A stretch of 64,000 nucleotides of DNA, from assembly GCF_026586625.1 (NCBI RefSeq), contig NZ_JAODIW010000006.1, forward strand, positions 1-64,000, in the 5' to 3' direction. The notes under the pieces were generated by a model. That model ran no database searches and had not been told where the DNA came from. It saw only the letters and a list, made by a program, of their open reading frames with translations. Source of the stretch: Halobium salinum. GTDB taxonomy: Archaea > Halobacteriota > Halobacteria > Halobacteriales > Haloferacaceae. Positions 47,771 through 60,225 of the stretch are shown piece by piece (positions within the stretch are counted from its first letter, which is position 1; every line of letters starts with the position of its first letter). Made by a program: the position numbers and the translations under genes.

Positions 47771-49622
47771 GGGCGAGTCGACGGAGTCGGCGGGCGCCGA
47801 CGCCCACGTCGAGGACGAGGGTGCGGCCATCACCGAACTCGCCAAGCGCCGTGGGTTCTTCTTCGGCTCCAACGAGGCGTACGGCGGCGTCGCCGGCTTC
47901 TACACGTTCGGCCCGCAGGGCGCGGCGCTGAAGCGCAACGTCGAGTCCTCCTGGCGCGACTGCTTCACCGTCCGGCTGGGCAACGAGGAGATAGAGGCGC
48001 CCACCATCGCCCCCGAACCCGTCTTCGAGGCGTCGGGCCACTTGGACGGCTTCGACGACATGCTCGTCGAGTGTCCGGAGTGTGGGGAGTCCCACCGCGC
48101 GGACCATCTCATCGAGGACAACACGGACATCGAGGAGGCCGAGTCCATCCCGATTCCGGAGGTCGAGAGCCTCATCGCCGAGCACGACCTCCACTGTCCG
48201 AACTGCGGCGCCGAACTGTCGGGCCAGGCGGTCGAGGAGTTCAACCTGATGTTCGAGACGAGCATCGGTCCCGGCTCGGGTCAACCCGGCTACCTCCGCC
48301 CGGAGACCGCACAGGGCATCTTCGTAGAATTCCCCCGGCTGAAGGAGTACGCGCGCAACAAACTCCCCTTCGGCGTCACCCAAATCGGTCGCGCGTACAG
48401 AAACGAGATTAGCCCCCGGAAGGGCATCGTCCGCACGCGCGAGTTCACCCAGGCCGAGCTGGAGCAGTTCGTCGACCCCGAGGCCGACGAGCCGCCCCTC
48501 GACGACGTTCGCGACGTGCACGTGCGGCTCTACCCCGCGACCGAACAGGAGGCCGAAGACGGGGAGTACGTCGAGACGACGGTCGGCGAGGCCGTCGACG
48601 ACGGCGTCATCGCCTCCGACTGGGTCGGCTACTTCCTCGGCGTCGCGCAGGGCTGGTACGAGGCCATCGGGGTCGACACCGACCGCTTCCGCTTCCGCCA
48701 GCATCTCTCGGGCGAGCGCGCCCACTACGCCAGCGACTGCTGGGACGCCGAGTCCGAACTCGACGGCGTCCCCGTCTCCGAGGCCGACGGCCCCGCCGAC
48801 GGCGACTGGAACGAAATCGCCGGCTTCGCCTACCGCTCCGATTACGACCTCTCGAAGCACGCGGAGCACAGCGACGAGTCCTTCACCGTCTTCCGACAGT
48901 ACGACGAGCCGAAGACGGTCGACCGCCCGGTCGTCGAGCCGGATATGAGCCAGCTGGGTCCGGAGTTCGGTGGGACGGCCGCCGACATCGCCGACGCCCT
49001 GCAGACCCTCGCCGCGGAGGACCCCGACGCCTTCGTCGACGCCGACGAGGTCGAGGTCGAGGTCGACGGCGAACAGTACCGGGTGGACGCCGACCTCGCG
49101 AACTTCCGCTGGGAGGAGCAGACGGAGGCCGGCGTCCACGTGACGCCGCACGTCGTCGAGCCCTCCTTCGGCGTCGACCGGACGGTGTACACCGTCATCT
49201 CGCACGCGCTGGAGCGCGACGTGGTTGCCGACGAGAAGCGTACCTACATGGCGTTCGAGCCGTCCGTGGCGCCGACGGCGGTGGGCGTCTTCCCGCTGCT
49301 CTCGAACGACGAGGAGCTCGTCTCCCTCGCGAACGAGGTCGTCGACGACCTCCGCACGGCCGGTCTCTCGGTGACCTACGACGACTCGGGCAACATCGGC
49401 CGGCGCTACCGTCGGCAGGACGAGGTCGGCACCCCGTTCTGTGTCACCGTCGACCAGGAGGGCATCGAGGGCGACGGGCCGGACACCGTGACGGTGCGCG
49501 AGCGCGACAGCACCGCACAGCTCCGTATCCCCGTTCCCCGCCTCGCCGAGGAGCTCTCGGGCGTCGTCACGGGGTCGCGCACCTTCGACGAACTGCGCAC
49601 CGAGTACGAGGCCGTCGAGTGA
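47763..49622 (+). CDS. glyS: Glycyl-tRNA synthetase
   Basis: A 619-residue class II synthetase of the dimeric archaeal/eukaryotic type. Marks are AITELAKRRGFFFGSNEAYG near the N-terminus, a zinc-type pair CPECGESHRADHLI and CPNCGAELSGQ, then GYLRPETAQGIFVEF and the motif 2 stretch TQIGRAYRNEISPRKGIVRT. Motif 3 context is EPSFGVDRTVYTVISHAL, followed by the anticodon-binding domain VAPTAVGVFPLLSNDEELV. It starts inside the end of the CBS gene. The N-terminal 20 residues are acidic. Confidence 0.96.
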   Translation: MSEGESTESAGADAHVEDEGAAITELAKRRGFFFGSNEAYGGVAGFYTFGPQGAALKRNVESSWRDCFTVRLGNEEIEAPTIAPEPVFEASGHLDGFDDMLVECPECGESHRADHLIEDNTDIEEAESIPIPEVESLIAEHDLHCPNCGAELSGQAVEEFNLMFETSIGPGSGQPGYLRPETAQGIFVEFPRLKEYARNKLPFGVTQIGRAYRNEISPRKGIVRTREFTQAELEQFVDPEADEPPLDDVRDVHVRLYPATEQEAEDGEYVETTVGEAVDDGVIASDWVGYFLGVAQGWYEAIGVDTDRFRFRQHLSGERAHYASDCWDAESELDGVPVSEADGPADGDWNEIAGFAYRSDYDLSKHAEHSDESFTVFRQYDEPKTVDRPVVEPDMSQLGPEFGGTAADIADALQTLAAEDPDAFVDADEVEVEVDGEQYRVDADLANFRWEEQTEAGVHVTPHVVEPSFGVDRTVYTVISHALERDVVADEKRTYMAFEPSVAPTAVGVFPLLSNDEELVSLANEVVDDLRTAGLSVTYDDSGNIGRRYRRQDEVGTPFCVTVDQEGIEGDGPDTVTVRERDSTAQLRIPVPRLAEELSGVVTGSRTFDELRTEYEAVE

Positions 49623-49644
49623 GCGAAACCGGGGTCGTCGCGAC

Positions 49645-50241
49645 GTGACCGAGATAGGGCGCCGCTTGGTCCACGTGAGCGGTACGGGGCTGCCGGCGCT
49701 CTACCTGCTGGACCTGGTCACGTGGCGGGAGTTACAGTACCTGCTCGCCGCCGGCCTCCTCGTCGCCGGCGTGCTGGAGTTCTTCCGGCTGTTCGTCGGA
49801 TTGGACTGGTGGGTGTACCGACGGCTCACCCGCGAGTACGAACGGGGGAACCCCGCGGGCTACGCGCTGTACTTCGTGTCGCTGACCGCGGTGGCGTTCC
49901 TCTTCGACCCGCCAGTGGCGGTGCCGGGGATGCTGATGCTCACGGTCGGGGACCCCATCAGCGGTCTGCTCGGCTCGAACGACGCCGGGCGGGGGAAGCG
50001 TCTGGGCGTGCTCGCGGCGATGTTCGGCGTCTGCTTCCTGCTCGCGGTGCCGTTCACCACGAGCCAGGCGGCGTCGGTGCCGTGGCTGGTCGGGGTCGCC
50101 GCGGCGGCGGCCGGAGCGGCCGGTGCGACGCTCGCCGACGGCGTGAAGCCCGTCGTGGCGACCTACGTCATCGACGACAACCTCTCCATCCCGCCGGCGG
50201 CGTGTGTGGCTATCTGGGCCGTGCTTCTGCTGGGTGGGTGA
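49645..50241 (+). CDS. Polyprenol/dolichol kinase-like membrane protein
   Basis: A 198-residue membrane protein with about six hydrophobic segments, starting at a GTG 22 bases after glyS (MTEIGRRLVHVSGTGLPALY). The RRLVHVSGTGLPALYLLD start, the basic loop YRRLTREYERGNPAGYALYF and the conserved MLMLTVGDPISGLLGSNDAG are typical of the SEC59/dolichol kinase and phosphatidate cytidylyltransferase-like group. Some members phosphorylate polyprenols with CTP, which haloarchaea need for glycan carriers. The exact substrate is unproven. TLADGVKPVVATYVIDDNLS near the end contains the second conserved acidic site. Confidence 0.78.
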   Translation: MTEIGRRLVHVSGTGLPALYLLDLVTWRELQYLLAAGLLVAGVLEFFRLFVGLDWWVYRRLTREYERGNPAGYALYFVSLTAVAFLFDPPVAVPGMLMLTVGDPISGLLGSNDAGRGKRLGVLAAMFGVCFLLAVPFTTSQAASVPWLVGVAAAAAGAAGATLADGVKPVVATYVIDDNLSIPPAACVAIWAVLLLGG

Positions 50242-50495
50242 GGGCGTCTCCCGTGTCGTCGGTCCGGGTTCGACTCTCGGTGGGGTCGTCGTCCGAACCG
50301 TCAGGTTCGGGGCGACCGGGCTGACTCACGACGGCTTGCGGACTGCCGACGGAAGCCGGCGCAGTAGGCACCGCCGGCGAACGGAGTGAACCCACCGAGC
50401 GTCCGGCCATCGAACCACCGCCCCGGCCCACGGAGCCGCCCATCTGCGTACACTTAAGAACGAACCCGACCAACGCTCGAACGAGTCACACACGA

Positions 50496-50981
50496 ATGAC
50501 CGTCTACGAGAGCGACCTGCCCGGCGTCGGGAAGAAACACGAGATCGAACTCGACGACGGGTCGCGACTCGTCGTCGTCACCCACAACACGGGGAAGCGC
50601 GAGGTGTTCCGCCGCGAGGACCCCGACGCCGACTCCGAGAAACTGTTCGAACTGCCGGACTCGATGGCGCGACAGGTCGGCACCATCCTCGAAGGCGCGT
50701 ACTTCCAGCCCGTCCGCACCGACCTCATGGAGACGGTGCTCGAAGGTGACACCGTCCTGGAGTGGGTCGGCATCGACGACGACGACCCCATCGCGGGCAA
50801 GACCCTCGCCGAGTCGGGCGTCCGCCAGCGAACGGGCGCGACCGTCATCGCGATTCAGCGCAGCGGCGAGGCCATCACGAACCCCGGCGCCGACACGCGA
50901 GTCGAGCCGGGAGACACGCTCATCGTCATCGGGTCGCGCGAGCAGTGTCAGGACTTCGAGTCAGAGGTCTCCGGCGACTGA
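50496..50981 (+). CDS. Antiporter regulatory subunit, KhtT-like
   Basis: A 161-residue cytosolic regulator. The N-terminal part (MTVYESDLPGVGKKHEIELD, RLVVVTHNTGKREVFRREDP) and the C-terminal RCK-C/TrkA-C domain (DDPIAGKTLAESGVRQRTGA, TVIAIQRSGEAITNPGADTR, GDTLIVIGSREQCQDFES) match KhtT, which binds nucleotides and gates the KhtU potassium/proton antiporter. Its TGA overlaps the next ATG by one base, so regulator and antiporter are made together. A TATA-like CACTTAAGAAC lies about 38 bases before the start, in a 254-base gap with no other gene. Confidence 0.88.
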   Translation: MTVYESDLPGVGKKHEIELDDGSRLVVVTHNTGKREVFRREDPDADSEKLFELPDSMARQVGTILEGAYFQPVRTDLMETVLEGDTVLEWVGIDDDDPIAGKTLAESGVRQRTGATVIAIQRSGEAITNPGADTRVEPGDTLIVIGSREQCQDFESEVSGD

Positions 50982-52177
50982 TGGCCGCGGGGCTGCTCGA
51001 TATCGGCGCCGCCTTCCTCGTTCTCGCGTTCGCCGGCGCCGTCGCGACGCGGGTGGGCCTCTCGGTCGTCCCGCTGTACGTCGTCGCCGGCGTACTCGTC
51101 GGGCCGAACGTCGCCGGCGAACTCGGCCTCCCGTACGTCCCGACCGGCGAGGTACTGACCGTCTTCGGCGAACTGGGCATCGTCCTCCTGCTCTTCTTCC
51201 TCGGGCTGGAGTTCAGCATCGACCGCCTGCTCGCGGCCCGCACCCGCATCGGCAAGGCGGGCCTGCTCGACGTGGGCGTGAACTTCCCGCTCGGCGTCGG
51301 CCTCGGCCTCCTCTTCGGCTGGTCGGCGCTGGAGTCGCTCCTGTTGGGGGGTATCGTCTACATCTCCTCGTCGGCCATCATCACGAAGTCGCTCGTCGAC
51401 CTCGGCTGGGTGGCCGACCCCGAGAGCGAACCGGTCCTCGGCACGCTCGTCTTCGAGGACCTCGTCATCGCGCTGTACCTCGCGGTCGTCACCCCGCTGG
51501 TGCTCGGCGGCGGGGGGTTCGAGGCGACCGCCGGCCGCGTCGGCGTCGCAATCGTCGTCCTCCTCGCGCTGGCGGTCGTCGCCCGGGCCGGGACGACCGT
51601 CTTCGACTCCCTGTTGGACGGCGTATCCGGCGAGGCGGTCACGCTCCGCGTGCTCGGCGTGACCGTGCCCGTCGCCGGCGCGGCGCTCGCACTCGGCGTC
51701 AGCGAGGCGGTGGCGGCGTTCTTCGTCGGCGTCGGCTTCGCCGGAACCGGCCACGTCGAGCGCATCGAGCGGCTCCTGACGAGCCTGCGGGACGCCTTCG
51801 CCGCGGCGTTCTTCCTCTACATCGGCCTCCAGACCGACCCAGCACTGATCGTCGAAGTGGCGCTTCCGCTCGCCGTCGTCGTCGCGGTCACGGCCCCCGC
51901 GAAGCTCGTCAGCGGGTTCTACGGCGGGCGCATCTTCGGCCTGAACGACCGCCGGTCGGCCCGCGTCGGCGCCGCCCTCGTCGCTCGCGGCGAGTTCTCG
52001 CTCATCATCGCCGCGCTGGCGACCGCCGGCGGCCTGCCCGAGCGAGTCGCCGCGCTCGCCGTCGGTTACGTCCTCGTGATGAGCCTGCTCGGGACGATGC
52101 TGATGGGCCAGTCGGCGGTCGTCGAACGGGTCGTCCTGCGGGTGAGCGAACGGGGCGAACCGAGCGCGGCGGACTGA
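50981..52177 (+). CDS. Cation:proton antiporter, KhtU/CPA2-like
   Basis: A 398-residue membrane antiporter of the CPA2 group with about twelve helices. Marks are VPLYVVAGVLVGPNVAGELG, then LGIVLLLFFLGLEFSIDRLL, the SSSAIITKSLVDLGWVADP segment and TLVFEDLVIALYLAVV, where the conserved Asp after Glu lies in the transport site region. Near the end, ARVGAALVARGEFSLIIAAL carries the conserved Arg-Gly-Glu-Phe. The cytosolic NAD-binding domain of KefB/KefC is absent, consistent with control by the separate KhtT-like subunit. The start at 50981 overlaps the regulator stop (TGATG). Potassium export is inferred. Confidence 0.9.
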   Translation: MAAGLLDIGAAFLVLAFAGAVATRVGLSVVPLYVVAGVLVGPNVAGELGLPYVPTGEVLTVFGELGIVLLLFFLGLEFSIDRLLAARTRIGKAGLLDVGVNFPLGVGLGLLFGWSALESLLLGGIVYISSSAIITKSLVDLGWVADPESEPVLGTLVFEDLVIALYLAVVTPLVLGGGGFEATAGRVGVAIVVLLALAVVARAGTTVFDSLLDGVSGEAVTLRVLGVTVPVAGAALALGVSEAVAAFFVGVGFAGTGHVERIERLLTSLRDAFAAAFFLYIGLQTDPALIVEVALPLAVVVAVTAPAKLVSGFYGGRIFGLNDRRSARVGAALVARGEFSLIIAALATAGGLPERVAALAVGYVLVMSLLGTMLMGQSAVVERVVLRVSERGEPSAAD

Positions 52178-52459
52178 ACGTGTTCGGGAGGCGCCGTCGC
52201 CGACCCGTTCGAATTCCGACGCGTCGGGGGCTGTAACGCTTGCCACCCCGGAAGGATTTAATAGCCCCCACCGACAACGACGACCAACGATGGCGTCGAC
52301 TCGCGACACCACGTCCGTCCACACCCCCGCGCTCGGTCTCCTCCGAGCGCCGCGAGCTCGACGACCGGGCCTCTAGGCCCACCTCACTTCTCACCCCACC
52401 GACCCGACTTTCCGTCGCGACGAATCCCTCGATTTTGCCGCGTAGCGTGCAGTATGCCG
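52178..52459. other. Gap between antiporter and argG
   Basis: No gene is seen here. A TATA-like AATAGCCCC region near 52260 precedes a short Arg/Ser/Pro-rich frame that I do not accept as coding. AT content rises sharply toward the right, into the argG promoter. The segment GAATCCCTCGATTTTGCC near 52422-52439 and the following AT-rich arms are the regulatory core. Confidence 0.45.
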
Positions 52460-52490
52460 TTTAATTCCTTAATTAGAAGCGACGAATTTA
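52460..52490 (+). promoter_or_regulatory. argG promoter with putative arginine-operator motif
   Basis: The arm TTTAATT (52460-52466) and the arm CGACGAATTTA (from 52480 to 52490) lie in a 31-base block that recurs with the same arms and the same spacing upstream of argW at 55654-55684. The block ends 27 bases before the argG ATG, so GAATTTA is likely to be the TATA element and the upstream arm an operator. Nothing like it was noticed elsewhere in the window. Confidence 0.6.
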
Positions 52491-52517
52491 TGTCCCTGTG
52501 TGGTCCAGCATGAGTCG

Positions 52518-53837
52518 ATGACAAAGCGCGTCGCTCTCGCGTTCAGCGGAGGACTCGACACGACAGTCTGCGTGCCGCTCCTCGAAGAGGAGTACGGCTA
52601 CGACGAGGTCGTCGGCGTCACGGTCGACGTCGGCCAGCCCGAACCCGAATTCGACGAAGCCGAGGAGACCGCCGAGGCCCTCGACCTCGAACACTACGTC
52701 GTCGACGCGCGAGACGAGTTCGCCGACCTCTGTTTCGACTCCGTGCGCGCCAACGCCGAGTACCAGGGGTACCCCCTCGGGACGGCGCTGGCCCGCCCGG
52801 TCATCGCCAAGAAGATTCTGGAGGTCGCGAAAGAGCAGGACTGCGACGCCCTCGCCCACGGCTGTACCGGGAAGGGGAACGACCAGCTGCGCTTCGAGGC
52901 CGTCTGGCGCGCCTCCGACCTCGAGGTCATCGCCCCCGTGCGCGAGATGGGGCTGACCCGCGAGTGGGAGATGGAGTACGCGGCGGAGAAGGAACTGCCC
53001 GTCGAGGGCGGCAACGAGGGTGCCTGGTCCATCGACACCAACCTCTGGTCGCGCTCGGTCGAAGGTGACGACCTCGAGGACCCGAGCTACGTCCCGCCGG
53101 AGGACATCTACGACTGGACGACGGCGCCCACCGAGTCCGAGGGGACGGAACTCGTCGAAATCGAGTTCGACGAGGGGTACCCGGTTGCCGTCGACACCGT
53201 CGAGGAAACCTCGACGAGCTCCCAGCCGTCGGCTGGGAACGGCGAGGAGCAGTCCGCAGTCGACATCATCGAGCAGTTGAACGAGCAGGCGGGCGCCCAC
53301 GGTATCGGGCGCACCGACATGATGGAAGACCGCATGCTCGGGCTGAAGGTGCGCGAGAACTACGAACATCCGGCCGCAACGGTGCTTCTGACGGCACACG
53401 AAGCCCTGGAGCAGTTAGTGCTGACGAAGGAGGAGCGCGACTTCAAACAGCAGATCGACCACCAGTGGGCCGAGAAGGGGTACCAGGGGCTCGTCGACGC
53501 GCCGCTGATGACCTCGCTCGACGGGTTCCTCGACGCGAACCAGACGAAGGTGACGGGAACCGTGACGGTGAAACTCGACGCCGGGCAGGTCCGCCCGGTC
53601 GCCCGCGAGTCCGACTACGCCGTCTACTCCGAGTCGGCGGCGTCGTTCAACACCGAGACCGTCGACGGCATCGAGCAGGCCGACGCGACCGGCGTGGCGA
53701 AGTACCACGGGTTCCAGTCACGCCTCGCCAACGCGGTGGCGGCGGGAGTCGAGAAGCCCGAACTGGCGGCGGACGGAAGCGGAGACGGCCACGAACTGCC
53801 GTCGAAGGACGGCGGCGAGGACGGCGAGGACAAGTAA
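52518..53837 (+). CDS. argG: Argininosuccinate synthase
   Basis: A 439-residue enzyme joining citrulline and aspartate with ATP. The N-type ATP-binding motif is ALAFSGGLDTTVCVPLLEE at the start, followed by ALARPVIAKKILEVAKEQDC, HGCTGKGNDQLRFE and GGNEGAWSIDTNLWSRSVEG. An insertion rich in Ser, Thr and Glu (VEETSTSSQPSAGNGEEQSA) and an acidic C-terminal tail make it longer than the usual 400. The ATG at 52518 opens MTKRVALAFSGG; a GTG at 52500 is in frame but unneeded. It is the first gene of argGH, with argH beginning one base after its stop. Confidence 0.97.
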   Translation: MTKRVALAFSGGLDTTVCVPLLEEEYGYDEVVGVTVDVGQPEPEFDEAEETAEALDLEHYVVDARDEFADLCFDSVRANAEYQGYPLGTALARPVIAKKILEVAKEQDCDALAHGCTGKGNDQLRFEAVWRASDLEVIAPVREMGLTREWEMEYAAEKELPVEGGNEGAWSIDTNLWSRSVEGDDLEDPSYVPPEDIYDWTTAPTESEGTELVEIEFDEGYPVAVDTVEETSTSSQPSAGNGEEQSAVDIIEQLNEQAGAHGIGRTDMMEDRMLGLKVRENYEHPAATVLLTAHEALEQLVLTKEERDFKQQIDHQWAEKGYQGLVDAPLMTSLDGFLDANQTKVTGTVTVKLDAGQVRPVARESDYAVYSESAASFNTETVDGIEQADATGVAKYHGFQSRLANAVAAGVEKPELAADGSGDGHELPSKDGGEDGEDK

Positions 53838-53838
53838 G

Positions 53839-55317
53839 ATGGGTGAGGAGGAAGCCACCGACGACACCGTCGTCCGCCGGGACCGCTTCAGCGGCGGCCC
53901 CGCCCGCGGCTTCCTCTCCAGTCTCGACGCCGACCGGCGCATCTTCGAGGCCGACCTCGCGGTCGACCGCGCCCACGTCGTGATGCTCGCAGAACGGGGA
54001 ATCGTCGGCGACGACGTCGCCGGCGAGATTCTGGCCACACTCGACGACGTCGAGGCGGCGGGCCACGGCGCCCTGCCGGACGGCGAGGACGTCCACGAGG
54101 CCATCGAGTCGGCGGTCGTCTCCGAAGTCGGCCCCGAGGGCGGACGGATGCACACCGCCCGGTCGCGCAACGACGAGGTGGCGACCTGTATCAGGTATCG
54201 CCTCCGCGACGACCTGCTCCGTTCGGTCGAGACGGCGCTCGCCCTGCGCGAGTCGCTCGTCGAGTCGGCGGCCGACCACACCGAGACGTTGCTCCCGGGG
54301 TACACCCACCTCCAGCCCGCCCAGCCGACGACGGTTGCCCACTGGCTACTCTCCTACGAGGCCGCCGTCACGCGGGACGCCGAGCGCTTGTTCGACGCCT
54401 ACGCTCGTGTGAACCGTTCCCCCCTCGGCGGGGCCGCGTTCGCGGGGACGCCGTTCGATATCGACCGCGACCGGACGGCCGAGTTGCTCGGCTTCGACGG
54501 CGTCGTCCGCAACTCCATGGACGCCTCGTCGGGCCGGGACGTGCTCGTCGAGGCCGTCTCGGCGCTCGCGACCCACGCCGTGACGCTGTCGGGGCTGGCG
54601 GAGGACCTGATACTCTACGCCAACCGCGGGTTCGTCTCGCTGTCGGACGACTACTCCTCCACGTCGTCCATCATGCCCCAGAAGGTGAACCCCGACACGA
54701 TGGAACTCGTGCGGGCGACCGCCGGAGACGCGGTCGGCGACCTCACCGGGCTGTTGACGACGCTGAAGGGGCTGCCCCGCGCGTACAACCGCGACCTCCA
54801 GCGCGCCACGCCCCACGCGTGGGACGCCGTCGACGACGTGACGGCCGCAAGCGAGGTAGCGGCGGGCGCGGTGGCGACGGCGACCTGGCACGCCGAGGCG
54901 ACGACGCCCGCCGCGGGGGAAGGGTTCTCGACTGCGACGGGCGTCGCCGACGCGCTCGCGATGGCGGGGCTCCCCTTCCGGACCGCACACGAAGTCGTCG
55001 CGGCGGCCGCACCCGAGGTCGAACCGGAGGACGACGTGGCAACCGTTACCGCAAGAGTTGACGCGGCCGCAGAGGCGGTATTAGGGGAGTCACTATGGGA
55101 GTACGTGACCCGGGACGCCGTGACGCGCGTGCTCGACCCCGCCGAGAGCGTGGCGAGTCGCGACTCCGCCGGCGGCCCCGCCCCCGACGCGGTCGCGAGC
55201 GAGGTCAAGGCGGCCCGTGAGTCGCTCGCGGCCGACCGCGAGACGCTCGCCGGACGCCGTGAGGCGCTGGCGGCGGCGGCCGAAGCGCTCGACGCGGAGG
55301 TGGCGAGCTATGTCTGA
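53839..55317 (+). CDS. argH: Argininosuccinate lyase
   Basis: A 492-residue member of the fumarase/aspartase superfamily, cleaving argininosuccinate to arginine and fumarate. The signature is SSTSSIMPQKVNPDTMELVR near the middle; the other conserved blocks are GGRMHTARSRNDEVATCIRY and LLPGYTHLQPAQPTTVAHWL. The N-terminal 15 residues are acidic. The C-terminal part carries extra Ala/Glu-rich helices (REALAAAAEALDAEVASYV). A proline-rich open frame begins inside its end at 55310, but I do not accept it as a gene. Confidence 0.97.
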   Translation: MGEEEATDDTVVRRDRFSGGPARGFLSSLDADRRIFEADLAVDRAHVVMLAERGIVGDDVAGEILATLDDVEAAGHGALPDGEDVHEAIESAVVSEVGPEGGRMHTARSRNDEVATCIRYRLRDDLLRSVETALALRESLVESAADHTETLLPGYTHLQPAQPTTVAHWLLSYEAAVTRDAERLFDAYARVNRSPLGGAAFAGTPFDIDRDRTAELLGFDGVVRNSMDASSGRDVLVEAVSALATHAVTLSGLAEDLILYANRGFVSLSDDYSSTSSIMPQKVNPDTMELVRATAGDAVGDLTGLLTTLKGLPRAYNRDLQRATPHAWDAVDDVTAASEVAAGAVATATWHAEATTPAAGEGFSTATGVADALAMAGLPFRTAHEVVAAAAPEVEPEDDVATVTARVDAAAEAVLGESLWEYVTRDAVTRVLDPAESVASRDSAGGPAPDAVASEVKAARESLAADRETLAGRREALAAAAEALDAEVASYV

Positions 55318-55653
55318 GGCGTTCGGCGCCGCGAGCGGCGCGCTCGACGTCGCGAGCGACGGAGTCGGTCGGGAGTCGACGCCGAGAGGTGGCCGGCTCC
55401 GACGACCGCGACGACTCCCGCTCCGGCGAGCGGCGCGTCCGGTCCCGGCCCCGCGACCGAGTCCGTCGCCGCGACCGCGGCCGGTCGGTGTGGACGCGGC
55501 GCCGACCCCGACCCCGACGCCGGTCGGAGCCCCGCTCCCGCCGCTGCCGCTTCCGCCGTCCCCTCTTGGGGACAAACTACCAACTATCCGACCATCGGTG
55601 CGCGGTTCGGCACGAAGCGACGTTCTCCCCCTCGATTAGGGTCGACCACGTCT
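55318..55653. other. Gap between argH and argW
   Basis: A 336-base stretch before the argW operator. A frame starting with ATG at 55310, overlapping the argH stop, runs to 55639 and would encode a 109-residue protein. After MSEAFGAASGALDVASDGVG it becomes a Pro/Arg/Ser repeat-like sequence unlike haloarchaeal proteins. Translational coupling makes it possible but composition argues against it. No RNA gene or TATA box was recognised before 55650. Confidence 0.4.
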
Positions 55654-55684
55654 TTTAATTTCGATTACAATATCGACGAATTTA
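55654..55684 (+). promoter_or_regulatory. argW promoter with shared operator motif
   Basis: The block TTTAATT (55654-55660), a 13-base spacer, then CGACGAATTTA (55674-55684) copies the argG promoter arms at the same 31-base span, although the spacer differs. The block ends 32 bases before the argW ATG at 55717, so GAATTTA is the probable TATA element and the transcript would have almost no leader. Shared arms with diverged spacers suggest a common regulator of arginine synthesis. Confidence 0.6.
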
Positions 55685-55716
55685 AGGTAGATAGCCGGCA
55701 ACGGTGAGGTACAGCA

Positions 55717-55887
55717 ATGACCGACGCCGACTGTCCCGAGTGCGGGGCCGAACTGTCCCTGCACGAGGACCTGGAAGCCGGAGAGATCGTCGACTGTGGA
55801 ACCTGCGGTGCGGAACTGGAAGTCGTCGACGTCAACCCGCCGGTCCTCGAGCGAGCCCCGGAGCTCGAAGAGGACTGGGGGGAGTGA
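55717..55887 (+). CDS. argW: Amino-group carrier protein ArgW/LysW
   Basis: A 56-residue acidic carrier. It begins MTDADCPECGAELSLHEDLE, has the second cysteine pair in VDCGTCGAELEVV, and ends with the diagnostic EDWGE. The two CxxC pairs bind zinc. In this pathway the alpha-amino group of glutamate is attached to the gamma-carboxyl of the terminal Glu, protecting intermediates on the way to ornithine. It leads the argWXCBDEF operon and carries the shared arginine promoter motif. Confidence 0.95.
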   Translation: MTDADCPECGAELSLHEDLEAGEIVDCGTCGAELEVVDVNPPVLERAPELEEDWGE

Positions 55888-55971
55888 GTTGACGGCGACT
55901 AGCTCACCCCACAGCGGTTCGACGGCGGGCGGCGCAGTACACACTGTCGTCCGCTCCGGAGGTGACGGCCT

Positions 55972-56877
55972 GTGAAGGTCGGCATCCTCTACTCGCGCAT
56001 CCGCAAGGACGAGAAGCTGCTCCTCTCGGAGCTCCGCGAGCGCGACCACGACGTGGTGAAACTCGACGTGCGGAAGCTCCGCTTCGGGCTGGACGACGTG
56101 ACCGACCTCGACGGGGAGGCCTCGGAAGCGACCGACTGCGACGTCGTACTCGACCGCTGTCTCGCGACCAGCCGCTCGCTGTACGCGACGCAGTTCCTCG
56201 ACTCGTACGGCGTCACCGTCGTCAACGGTCCCGACACGGCCGACGTCTGCGCCGACAAGGCGAAGAACAGCCTCGCGCTCCAGCGTGCGGACGTTCCCAC
56301 ACCCGCGACGGAGGTAGCGTTCACGAAGGAGGCCGCGATGCGGGCCATCGAGGAGTTCGGCTACCCCTGCGTGCTGAAGCCCGTCGTCGGCTCGTGGGGC
56401 CGCCTGATGGCGAAAATCGACTCCCGCTCGGCGGCGGAGGCGATTCTGGAGCACAAGGCGACGCTCGGCCACTACGAGCACAAGGTGTTCTACGTCCAGG
56501 AGTTCGTCGAGAAGCCCGGCCGCGACATCCGCGTCCTGGCGGTCGACGGCGAGCCCGTGGGCGCGATGGTGCGCTCCTCGGAGCACTGGCTCACCAACGC
56601 CGCGAAGGGCGCCGACACCGACGAGTTCGAACTCGACGAGGAGGCGAAGGAGCTGGTCGAGAAGGCGAGCGACGCCGTCGGCGGCGGCCTCCTCGGGGTC
56701 GACCTGATGGAGGTCGGCGGCGACGACTCCGGCTCCTACACCGTCCACGAGGTGAACCACACCGTCGAGTTCAAGGCGCTGAACGAGGTCGTCGACGTCG
56801 ACGTCCCCGGCGCCGTCGTCGACTGGCTGGAGGCGAAGGCCGACGACGAGAAGCGGGCCGCGGAGGCGGTGTTATGA
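55972..56877 (+). CDS. argX: Glutamate--ArgW ligase (LysX/ArgX)
   Basis: A 301-residue RimK-like ATP-grasp ligase that couples glutamate to the C-terminal Glu of ArgW, replacing N-acetylation as first step. It starts at a GTG (VKVGILYSRIRKDEKLLLSE). ATP-grasp blocks are NGPDTADVCADKAKNSLALQ, YPCVLKPVVGSWGRLMAKID, YVQEFVEKPGRDIRVLAVDG and VGVDLMEVGG-type GLLGVDLMEVGGDDSG near the end, with EVNHTVEFKALNEVVDVDVP. It lies 84 bases after argW, and its stop overlaps the argC ATG (ATGA). Haloarchaea lack a separate lysine version here; glutamate is the likely substrate because the cluster holds argF. Confidence 0.95.
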   Translation: MKVGILYSRIRKDEKLLLSELRERDHDVVKLDVRKLRFGLDDVTDLDGEASEATDCDVVLDRCLATSRSLYATQFLDSYGVTVVNGPDTADVCADKAKNSLALQRADVPTPATEVAFTKEAAMRAIEEFGYPCVLKPVVGSWGRLMAKIDSRSAAEAILEHKATLGHYEHKVFYVQEFVEKPGRDIRVLAVDGEPVGAMVRSSEHWLTNAAKGADTDEFELDEEAKELVEKASDAVGGGLLGVDLMEVGGDDSGSYTVHEVNHTVEFKALNEVVDVDVPGAVVDWLEAKADDEKRAAEAVL

Positions 56878-57950
56878 GTTCGGTCGGCGACGACGCCGAG
56901 ACCGACACCGAGGCGACGACACGCGCCGGCGTCGTCGGCGCCAGCGGCTTCACCGGCGGCGAACTCTGCCGCCTCCTGACCGCACACCCCGAGTTCGACC
57001 TCGTGCAGGCGACGAGCCGCGAGTACGAGAACAAAACTGTGGGGTCGGTCCACCCCAACCTCCGCGGGGTCGACCTGCGCTTCTCGGACCCCACCGATTT
57101 AGAGTCCGTAGACACCCTGTTCACCGCGACGCCTCACGGCGTCTCGATGGAGCACGTCGACGAGTTCTTCGAGGCCGCGGATACGGTGGTGGACCTCTCG
57201 GCGGACTTCCGCCTCGACACCGAAGAGCAGTACGACGAGTGGTACGACGGCCACGTCGCGCCGGAGTACCTGGAGAAGGCCGAGTACGCCCTGCCCGAGT
57301 TGAACCGGGAGAACCTGACCGGCGCGGAACTCATCGCGTCGGGTGGCTGTAACGCGACGGCGACGATGCTCGGGCTGAAACCGCTCGTAGACGGTGGTCT
57401 GATAGACTCGAACGACCGCGTGGTCGTGGACGTGAAAGTCGGCTCCAGCGAGGGCGGCGCCGGCGGCGGAGCGGCCTCCTCACACGCCGAGCGCTCCGGC
57501 GTCGTGCGGCCGTACGCGCCGACCGGGCACCGCCACGAGGCCGAAATCGAGCAGTTCCTCGGCCTCTCGACCGCGTTCACCGTCCACGCCGTCGACATGG
57601 TCCGCGGCGCGTCCGCCACGGGCCACGTCTTCCCCGGCGAGCGCGTGACGAAGGGCGACCTCTGGTCGGCCTACCGCGACGCGTACGAGGACGAGCCGTT
57701 CGTCCGCCTCGTCGCGGGCGGCGGCGGCGTGTACCGCTACCCCGAGCCCAAGGCCGTGGCCGGGACGAACTACGCCGAGGTCGGCTTCGAACTCGACCCC
57801 GCTAATGGAAGGATAGTCGTGTTCTCGGCCATCGACAACATGATGAAGGGGTCGGCCGGGCAGGCCGTCCACGCCGCGAACGTCGCCCTCGGCTTCGAGG
57901 AGACCGCCGGCCTGGAGTTCGGCGGCCTCCACCCCGTGGGGGCACCCTGA
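56874..57950 (+). CDS. argC: ArgW-glutamyl-phosphate reductase
   Basis: A 358-residue NADPH-dependent reductase converting the carrier-bound glutamyl phosphate into its semialdehyde. The Rossmann motif is AGVVGASGFTGGELCRLLTA near residue 18, the active-site cysteine is in IASGGCNATATMLGLKPLVD, and VDVKVGSSEGGAGGGAASSH and MKGSAGQAVHAANVALGFEE are conserved. An acidic 15-residue leader precedes the core. Its start overlaps argX (ATGA), and its stop overlaps argB by one base (TGATG). Confidence 0.95.
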   Translation: MSSVGDDAETDTEATTRAGVVGASGFTGGELCRLLTAHPEFDLVQATSREYENKTVGSVHPNLRGVDLRFSDPTDLESVDTLFTATPHGVSMEHVDEFFEAADTVVDLSADFRLDTEEQYDEWYDGHVAPEYLEKAEYALPELNRENLTGAELIASGGCNATATMLGLKPLVDGGLIDSNDRVVVDVKVGSSEGGAGGGAASSHAERSGVVRPYAPTGHRHEAEIEQFLGLSTAFTVHAVDMVRGASATGHVFPGERVTKGDLWSAYRDAYEDEPFVRLVAGGGGVYRYPEPKAVAGTNYAEVGFELDPANGRIVVFSAIDNMMKGSAGQAVHAANVALGFEETAGLEFGGLHPVGAP

Positions 57951-59089
57951 TGACAGAGACAGACGACAGCGCCGACGACGAATACGAGTTCGAATCTCCA
58001 CACGAAACGGAGGGGTTCGACTCGGGCCGTGGAGTGGAAACGAAGGGGTCCAGTGGGAGCGACGGACCCGAAACCGAGGGGTTCTGCGTCGACGACGTGG
58101 TCGCCCACGGCGGCACCGTCGAGGCGTTCCTCGCCGACGGCGGCGACAACCTCGTGGCCGATGGAGGACTCGTCGACGAGACCGGCGACGACGTCGACGA
58201 CGCCCCCGTCGTCGTGAAAATCGGCGGCGCACGCGCGGTGAACCCCGAGGGCGCCGTGCAGGACGTCGCTCACCTCGTCGCCAACGGCCGGCAGGTCGTC
58301 GTCGTCCACGGCGGTTCGACGGCGGTCGACGAGACGCTCGAGGAACTCGGCGAGGAGCCCACCTACGTCGAGACGCCGTCGGGCGTCACCGGGCGCTTCA
58401 CCGACGAGCGCGCGATGGAGGTGTTCACGATGGTGATGCCCGGAAAACTCAACACTGACCTCGTCGCGACCCTGCGCGCGGCCGGCGTCGACGCGCTCGG
58501 TCTCTCCGGGGTCGACGGCGGCCTCCTGACGGGGAAGCGTAAATCCGCCGTGCGCGTCGTCGAGGACGGCAAGAAGAAGATCAAGCGCGGCGACCACTCC
58601 GGGAAGATAGAGTCGGTGAACGCCGACCTCCTCGGGACCCTGCTCGACGCGGGCCACGTCCCCGTGGTGACGGTCCCGATGCTGGCGGACGACGGCGTGC
58701 CGGTGAACGCCGACGCCGACCGCGCCGCCGCCGCGGTGGCGGGCGCACTGGGCGCCCAACTCGTGGTGTTGACCGACGTGTCCGGGGTGTACGAGGACCC
58801 CGACGACCCCGAGACGCTCGTCTCGTCGGCGACGACGCCGGCGGACCTGGAGGCGCTGCAGGGCGCCGCCGAGGGGTTCATGACGAAGAAGGTGATGGCG
58901 GCCGTCGAGGCGCTGGAGGGCGGCGCCGCCGAGGTCGTCGTCGCCGACGCCAACCTGCGCGACCCCATCACGAACGCGCTCGGCGGCGGCGGGACGCACG
59001 TCTCGCCGGGTGTGTTGGGTGATGCGAGCGGCGTCGGCGACGCCGACGACGGGATTGGCGGCGACGAGGCCGGGGAGGTCGAACAATGA
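57950..59089 (+). CDS. argB: ArgW-glutamate kinase with acidic extension
   Basis: A 379-residue amino-acid-kinase-family enzyme that phosphorylates the carrier-bound glutamate. The core begins near residue 85 with VVVKIGGARAVNPEGAVQDV and includes VVVVHGGSTAVDETLEELGE, VTGRFTDERAMEVFTMVMPG, LVVLTDVSGVYEDPDDPETL and FMTKKVMAAVEALEGGAAEV. LysZ/ArgB cores are about 260-290 residues. The extra first 85 residues are acidic and low-complexity (ESPHETEGFDSG, then GPETEGF recurs), with no recognised domain. The ATG at 57950 overlaps argC by one base; GTG codons nearer the core exist, so a shorter protein is possible. Confidence 0.93.
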   Translation: MTETDDSADDEYEFESPHETEGFDSGRGVETKGSSGSDGPETEGFCVDDVVAHGGTVEAFLADGGDNLVADGGLVDETGDDVDDAPVVVKIGGARAVNPEGAVQDVAHLVANGRQVVVVHGGSTAVDETLEELGEEPTYVETPSGVTGRFTDERAMEVFTMVMPGKLNTDLVATLRAAGVDALGLSGVDGGLLTGKRKSAVRVVEDGKKKIKRGDHSGKIESVNADLLGTLLDAGHVPVVTVPMLADDGVPVNADADRAAAAVAGALGAQLVVLTDVSGVYEDPDDPETLVSSATTPADLEALQGAAEGFMTKKVMAAVEALEGGAAEVVVADANLRDPITNALGGGGTHVSPGVLGDASGVGDADDGIGGDEAGEVEQ

Positions 59090-60225
59090 GCGGCGGCTTC
59101 GTCTTCTCGGAGAAGCCCATCGAAATCGGACGCGGCGAGGGCGTCCACCTCTACGGGTCGGACGGCACCGAGTACCTCGACCTCGGGGCGAGCTACGCCG
59201 TCGCCGCCGTCGGCCACTGTCACCCGAAGGTCGTCGAGGCGGTGCAGGAGCAGGCCGCGGAACTGCTGTACGTGCAGGGGTCGTACCCGGTCGCGGCCCG
59301 GACGGAGCTGTACGAGAAACTCGCCGCGCTCGGCCCCGGTGACGCCGACAACGTCTGGCTCTGTAACTCCGGGACGGAGGCCAACGAGGCCGCGATGAAG
59401 TTCGCCCGCGCCGCCACCGGCCGGGAGAAGATAATCGCCACCAAGCGCGGCTTCCACGGCCGGACGATGGGCGCGCTCGCGATGACGTGGAAGGGGAAGT
59501 ACAAGGCGCCCTACGAGCCGCTCGCGGGGGGAGTCGAGTTCGTGAGCTACGGCGACGCCGCGGAGCTTCGGGAGGCCGTCGACGACGAGACCGCGGCGGT
59601 GTTCCTAGAGCCCGTACAGGGCGAAGGAGGGATTCACGCGGCCGATGCAGGGTATCTGCAGGCGGCCCGCGAAGCGACCGAGGAGGCGGGCGCGGCGCTC
59701 GTCTTCGACGAGATTCAGACGGGCGTCGGCCGGACGGGTCACCTCTGGGCCTGCGAGGGCGCCGGGGTGGAGCCGGACGTGCTGACGACCGCGAAGGGTA
59801 TCGCCTCGGGGCTCCCCCTCGGCGCGACGCTGTGTGCGGACTGGATTGCCGAAGAACACGGCGACCACGGGTCGACGTTCTCGGGCGGCCCGGTCGCCTG
59901 CGCCGCGGCGAACGCCACGCTCGACGTCGTGGTCGAGGAGGACCTCCCCACCCACGCCGGCGACGTGGGGAGCTACCTCGTCGAGTCCCTCGAGACGGCC
60001 GTCGAGGAGGGCGACCTCCCCGTCCGCGAGGTGCGCGGCGAGGGACTGATGGTCGGCGTCGAGGTGAAACGGGGGGCGAACCGCCTCCTGCGCGACCTGG
60101 CGCTCGAACAGCAGGTGCTCGCGCTGCCCGCCGGCCGCTCGGTGGTGCGCCTCCTGCCGCCGCTCGTGCTCGACCAGGCGGGCGCCGACCGCGCCGTCGA
60201 CGCGCTCGTGGAGGTGCTCTCGTGA
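59086..60225 (+). CDS. argD: ArgW-glutamate-semialdehyde aminotransferase
   Basis: A 379-residue class III PLP aminotransferase converting the carrier-bound semialdehyde to carrier-bound ornithine, with glutamate as donor. Family marks are YLDLGASYAVAAVGHCHPKV, NVWLCNSGTEANEAAMKFAR, RGFHGRTMGALAMTWKGKYK, AALVFDEIQTGVGRTGHLWA and the PLP lysine in LTTAKGIASGLPLGATLCAD. It starts MSGGFVFSEKPIEIGRGEGV. The start overlaps argB (ATGA) and the stop overlaps argE (GTGA). Confidence 0.95.
   Translation: MSGGFVFSEKPIEIGRGEGVHLYGSDGTEYLDLGASYAVAAVGHCHPKVVEAVQEQAAELLYVQGSYPVAARTELYEKLAALGPGDADNVWLCNSGTEANEAAMKFARAATGREKIIATKRGFHGRTMGALAMTWKGKYKAPYEPLAGGVEFVSYGDAAELREAVDDETAAVFLEPVQGEGGIHAADAGYLQAAREATEEAGAALVFDEIQTGVGRTGHLWACEGAGVEPDVLTTAKGIASGLPLGATLCADWIAEEHGDHGSTFSGGPVACAAANATLDVVVEEDLPTHAGDVGSYLVESLETAVEEGDLPVREVRGEGLMVGVEVKRGANRLLRDLALEQQVLALPAGRSVVRLLPPLVLDQAGADRAVDALVEVLS

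Follow-up and report, generated by a model that had tools for sequence, protein, structure and literature searches.

The window, a 64,000-nucleotide stretch of the Halobium salinum genome, carries two arginine units on the forward strand, argG-argH and argW-argX-onward. In Haloferax, the corresponding assignments are HVO_0049 for argG, HVO_0048 for argH and HVO_0047 for argW (PMC8305020). The initial annotation had reported the motif TTTAATT, 13 bases and CGACGAATTTA at 52460-52490 and 55654-55684, just before the first gene of each of two arginine units. A pattern search of the window recovered exact copies at both places (TTTAATTCCTTAATTAGAAGCGACGAATTTA at 52460 and TTTAATTTCGATTACAATATCGACGAATTTA at 55654), and the genes that follow are indeed argG and argW, the first genes of their units. 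The 3´ ends of the copies lie 28 bp before the argG ATG (52518) and 33 bp before the argW ATG (55717). The accompanying description of an identical 31-base span needs correction, since only the 18 fixed bases agree and the 13-base spacers differ. Also missing from that annotation were a leader ORF and a hairpin, which lie between the first argG promoter (P1) and the promoter that contains the motif (P2). The features considered below are as follows.

52257..52264, + strand: TATA box (TTTAATAG) of P1, the promoter of the leader transcript, 33 nt before the leader ATG
52290..52376, + strand: leader ORF of 28 codons, peptide MASTRDTTSVHTPALGLLRAPRARRPGL followed by the stop; start, Arg-rich end and stop position conserved class-wide
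52367..52380, + strand: GC hairpin GGGCC-TCTA-GGCCC with the leader stop at its loop; match to covariance model R2 at 52354-52402
52381..52415, + strand: C/U-rich, G-poor stretch after the hairpin, a possible zone of factor-dependent termination
52439..52495, + strand: argG promoter P2, whole module; match to profile R1, E = 1e-10
52443..52453, + strand: block A, TAGCGTGCAGT, conserved in argG P2 and argW promoters
52460..52466, + strand: block B, TTTAATT, from the pattern search and promoter comparison
52480..52490, + strand: block C, CGACGAATTTA, BRE and TATA of argG P2, with TTTA 31 bp before the ATG
52518..53837, + strand: argG (argininosuccinate synthase)
53839..55317, + strand: argH
55633..55687, + strand: argW promoter, whole module; match to profile R1, E = 2e-8
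55637, 55654-55660 and 55674-55684, + strand: TAG, TTTAATT and CGACGAATTTA of the argW promoter
55717..55887, + strand: argW (amino-group carrier protein), first gene of the second unit
55972..56877, + strand: argX, second gene of the argW unit

The motif is rare. TTTAATT-N13-CGACGAATTTA had no match in 100 shuffled windows, and in the whole genome (4,461,805 bases) the two copies stand alone even when up to three mismatches are allowed. When the argG and argW promoters of relatives were aligned on the TATA box, three common blocks emerged, and the reported motif proved to be the 3´ two thirds of a module of ~57 bp, in the order TAG block (block A), ~17 bp, TTTAATT (block B), ~14 bp, BRE/TATA (block C). 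In both copies of the window the TAG block (starts 52443 and 55637) precedes TTTA by 44 bp, and its spacing is near-constant across argG and argW promoters. Most of block C, CGACGAATTTA, is BRE and TATA, and what sets the module apart is TTTAATT together with the TAG block.

Among 292 haloarchaeal genomes, the original pattern with at most one mismatch gave 10 matches, 10/10 directly before argG or argW. We also searched with a sequence profile of the whole module (R1). In the window genome R1 found exactly two sites, and in nine genomes it found argG and argW promoters only, save one weak match (E = 0.21). Over the 292 genomes, 216 had a match, usually one or two. Among the matches listed and placeable against argG, 96/96 lie at arg promoters (51 argG, 45 argW), figures that are unbiased as to specificity and biased as to recall, R1 having been trained on argG and argW promoters. 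The argW copy is present in most genera sampled and the argG copy in some genera only. Two genomes, G132 and G186, have three R1 matches each instead of two.

Because the placed matches across the class are all argG or argW promoters, the motif marks arginine genes specifically. It is rare at unrelated promoters and kept before argG and argW in relatives, and a conserved arginine-specific promoter module is therefore well supported. This module is probably a regulator site for the arginine regulon: a dedicated transcription factor would bind blocks A and B just upstream of BRE/TATA, and would set the argG-argH and argW-argX-onward units together. The earlier proposal of an archaeal arginine box built around the TATA element is thus partly supported, as an arginine-specific, conserved promoter module. 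The module is not a box of the bacterial type. With up to three mismatches allowed, the bacterial ARG-box palindrome WNTGAATWWWWATTCANW had no match in the window, and ArgR (PF01316) was found neither in the window genome (G000) nor in 6/7 other genomes searched. With no ARG-box match and no ArgR HTH in the genome, we rejected the module as an ARG-box operator or ArgR site. A weak ArgR-HTH match (PF01316, 27.1 bits) occurs at G016:C23:274200-274373; relatives are without it.

Further upstream of argG, nearly every locus has a short ORF, whether or not it carries the module. In most loci the P1 TATA-to-ATG spacing is 30-34. The ORF of the window ends 84 bp upstream of the argG motif copy in CGA GCT CGA CGA CCG GGC CTC TAG, with tandem CGA arginine codons. 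Leader peptides elsewhere include MATRSTFATFAPLRAAAVRPRRRAL (Haloferax), MSRVVGPALAGSDTDGTVSPRRPRRPRRPGL (Halopiger) and MTRTHDAGSFSTAGACALRPRRPGL (Halococcus), each followed by a stop, and the stop codon, TAG or TGA, is located within the loop of a GC hairpin or next to it. In a frame-blind test that ignored composition, each ORF was started at whichever ATG or GTG first followed the best upstream TATA box; its stop fell inside the hairpin in 84/95 loci, compared with 3/184 for the other two frames. Arginine makes up 300/657 codons (46%) in the last nine leader positions and 215/1663 earlier, and CGA accounts for 73% of the arginine codons in the last nine positions versus 3% of 3333 in argG plus argH; the leaders behind these codon counts, as behind the stem counts below, were chosen partly by Arg content and hairpin, from which the frame-blind test alone is free. 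The peptides themselves are hardly alike between genera, with the Arg-rich end alone common to them, and are weakly constrained, with in-frame length changes and a dN/dS of about 0.5 overall that is near or above 1 in several genera. Such weak constraint is expected of an attenuator, because codons, not the peptide, matter in its reading.

The covariance model R2, which describes the hairpin end, matched in 220/292 genomes and 64/77 genera at about one site per genome, and all matches placed against argG (95/95) are on its strand, 62-135 nt upstream. G076 and G090 have two R2 matches each instead of one. The stem is kept with differing arms (GGGCC/GGCCC, GGCCC/GGGCC, GGGGC/GCCCC, GGGGTC/GACCCC) around loops of 3-7. 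Column-wise covariation on the MAFFT alignment (A2), where the counts were modest, is unreliable because the stem register shifts with loop length, and stems were scored per sequence instead, with 96% of loci attaining a score seen in 2% of shuffles. The minimum-energy structure contains the hairpin in 6/7 example folds. Rfam gave no family match at gathering score in 49000-60000.

The 35 nt after the hairpin average C 39, U 27, A 21 and G 13% (75 loci). A U-run was not found there, with at most three consecutive T within 20 nt in 74/75 loci, and for this reason an intrinsic terminator was ruled out. Alternative, antiterminator-like pairing between the Arg-codon segment and RNA further downstream was found in Halosimplex only and was rejected as not general.

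Together, these observations include three elements of a leader-peptide attenuator: a short ORF that has a start of its own and precedes the operon in the same direction; a run of end-product codons near the end of the ORF; and a conserved RNA hairpin within reach of a stalled ribosome. Since such a device is marked by rare end-product codons, a hairpin that invariably contains the stop, and a loose peptide, we read the leader and hairpin as a putative arginine leader-peptide attenuator, with an inferred mechanism. The P1 transcript would start with the leader ORF, which ends in tandem rare CGA codons with its stop at the hairpin loop. When charged Arg-tRNA is plentiful, the ribosome would complete the leader and depart, the hairpin would reform beside bare C/U-rich RNA, and RNA polymerase would stop, perhaps via FttA/aCPSF1. 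When arginine is short, the ribosome would stall on the CGA codons and cover the 5´ arm of the hairpin, which begins a few bases downstream, and transcription would continue into argG. If transcription is the target, the missing U-run and the lack of general antiterminator pairing make factor-dependent termination likelier. FttA/aCPSF1 terminates archaeal transcription, and competition between the ribosome and FttA for RNA polymerase, by mutual exclusion, has been put forward as a hypothesis only (PMC8116511, PMC11616081).

We put the probability of the whole explanation, an arginine-specific module that drives the two units combined with an upstream attenuator in the argG leader, at roughly 70%, judging from sequence comparison. 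Its most specific form holds that haloarchaeal argG is subject to ribosome-sensed attenuation, with CGA codons gauging Arg-tRNA and termination dependent on FttA/aCPSF1, and that this control dates back to the ancestor of the class, with a later promoter, itself under the control of a factor, partly bypassing it in some lineages. Here we lean only gently towards a yes.

The main rival is that the leader acts on translation, with the hairpin or the passage of ribosomes controlling either how accessible the argG start is or how stable the mRNA is, on a leadered transcript. The absence of a U-run would suit this mechanism, as would the position of the leader stop, which in most P2-less loci precedes the argG ATG by 81-123 nt, and the further conserved hairpin that P2-less Haloarculaceae carry nearer the argG start. 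However, the leader hairpin is far from the argG start, the leader and argG do not overlap, and no pairing between the hairpin and the argG start region has been demonstrated, so that we regard translational control as possible but rather unlikely. The second hairpin of the argG 5´ UTR (~CCGYC-CACC...GGTTCCG-GRCGG, about 50-80 nt before the ATG) shows apparent compensatory changes in Haloarculaceae loci (L141-L150, L155) and occurs in several genera without the module before argG. A pseudoknot between the loop of this 5´ UTR hairpin and the argG start was seen by eye in some Haloarculaceae species and was inconsistent in others, and we set it aside.

A different objection concerns the promoter rather than the leader, namely that the shared motif is merely a strong constitutive core promoter composed of BRE, TATA and an AT-rich upstream element, with no arginine-specific regulator. 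AT-rich upstream elements are common at archaeal promoters, and CGACGAATTTA does resemble BRE plus TATA. A general promoter type would nonetheless match many genes, whereas matches of the whole-module profile are confined to argG and argW promoters across families, with the near-constant spacing of block A, and we think this explanation unlikely. It is less probable still that the palindrome GGGCC-N4-GGCCC serves as a DNA operator located after P1 and that the ORF is incidental. In its commonest form the hairpin is a perfect inverted repeat, suitable as the target of a dimeric repressor, but the half-sites vary while their complementarity persists, the spacer ranges from 3 to 7, and the ORF frame, the stop in the hairpin and the CGA bias are all conserved. 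Most improbable is a functional small protein encoded by the leader ORF, which has its own promoter and is kept across the class but yields peptides that share little beyond the Arg-rich end and show the relaxed dN/dS given above.

At 29/84 argG loci, among them examples from Halorussus, Halococcus, Halosimplex, Halobacterium, Halovenus and Halomarina, the module before argG is absent and there is no TATA box within 60 nt of argG. At these loci the leader must therefore lie in the argG transcript, and it can act on argG there. In the clade of the window, transcripts from P2 would bypass the leader, a point against the attenuator. So is the altered leader that some lineages with P2 carry (L054 and L076, for example), and in one genome of genus g2 (G006) the hairpin and Arg-rich ORF remain while the stop has moved past the stem. 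At L099 in that genome, the leader starts with GTG and ends in ...ARRRGPSGR-TAA, the stop coming right after a GGCCC-CTC-GGGCC stem. Among the listed g2 genomes, R2 has no match save a weak one in G259. The putative control of the argG unit by the P1 leader is probably older than P2, and the distribution of the argG module copy and the altered leaders fit a scenario in which the later promoter is gradually relieving the older attenuator.

Leader peptides as a general haloarchaeal device received no support from trpC, the operon examined, for which 10 haloarchaeal genomes gave no convincing conserved Trp-rich leader ORF. Most of these trpC genes (L157-L166) have an operator-like pattern between TATA and start, roughly CTTATGTACANNTNNGTACRTTANTGTACANTAATG. 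In the open literature (5.39 million papers, with subscription papers mostly outside the search), we found no description of leader-peptide attenuation in archaea, and likewise none of a haloarchaeal arginine regulator or ARG box, although an earlier description of any of these is possible. As far as found, the leader-peptide switch is thus of a kind known from bacteria and apparently undescribed in archaea. The attenuator signature before argG spans a whole archaeal class, including the genetically tractable Haloferax, and the argG leader makes it directly testable whether archaeal ribosomes steer transcription via nascent leader peptides. If they do, FttA termination would gain a physiological switch. 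The promoter module, for its part, could serve as a defined bait in the search for the haloarchaeal arginine regulator.

Among known systems, the module resembles the bacterial ArgR/ARG-box regulon in that an operator-like motif is common to arginine biosynthesis promoters, and differs from it in being built of three blocks, of which BRE/TATA is the last. In Sulfolobus, a LysM-type Lrp activator controls the lysW cluster from a site upstream of BRE/TATA; compared by description rather than by motif, this is likewise control of an archaeal LysW/ArgW-type cluster from upstream of BRE/TATA. For the leader, the reference is leader-peptide attenuation, a textbook bacterial mechanism. Like the trp, his, leu and ilv attenuators, the argG leader has a short ORF before a biosynthetic operon, tandem product codons near the end of that ORF and a hairpin whose formation a stalled ribosome could change. 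In contrast to them, it is archaeal, has a single hairpin with the stop at its loop and no U-run, lacks a general antiterminator/terminator pair, uses rare CGA codons and is often followed by a second promoter. Bacterial Rho-dependent leader-peptide switches of the tna or mgtL type combine leader translation with a subsequent C-rich, G-poor RNA for the termination factor. The argG leader is likewise followed by C-rich, G-poor RNA, although here FttA/aCPSF1 would have to take the place of Rho.
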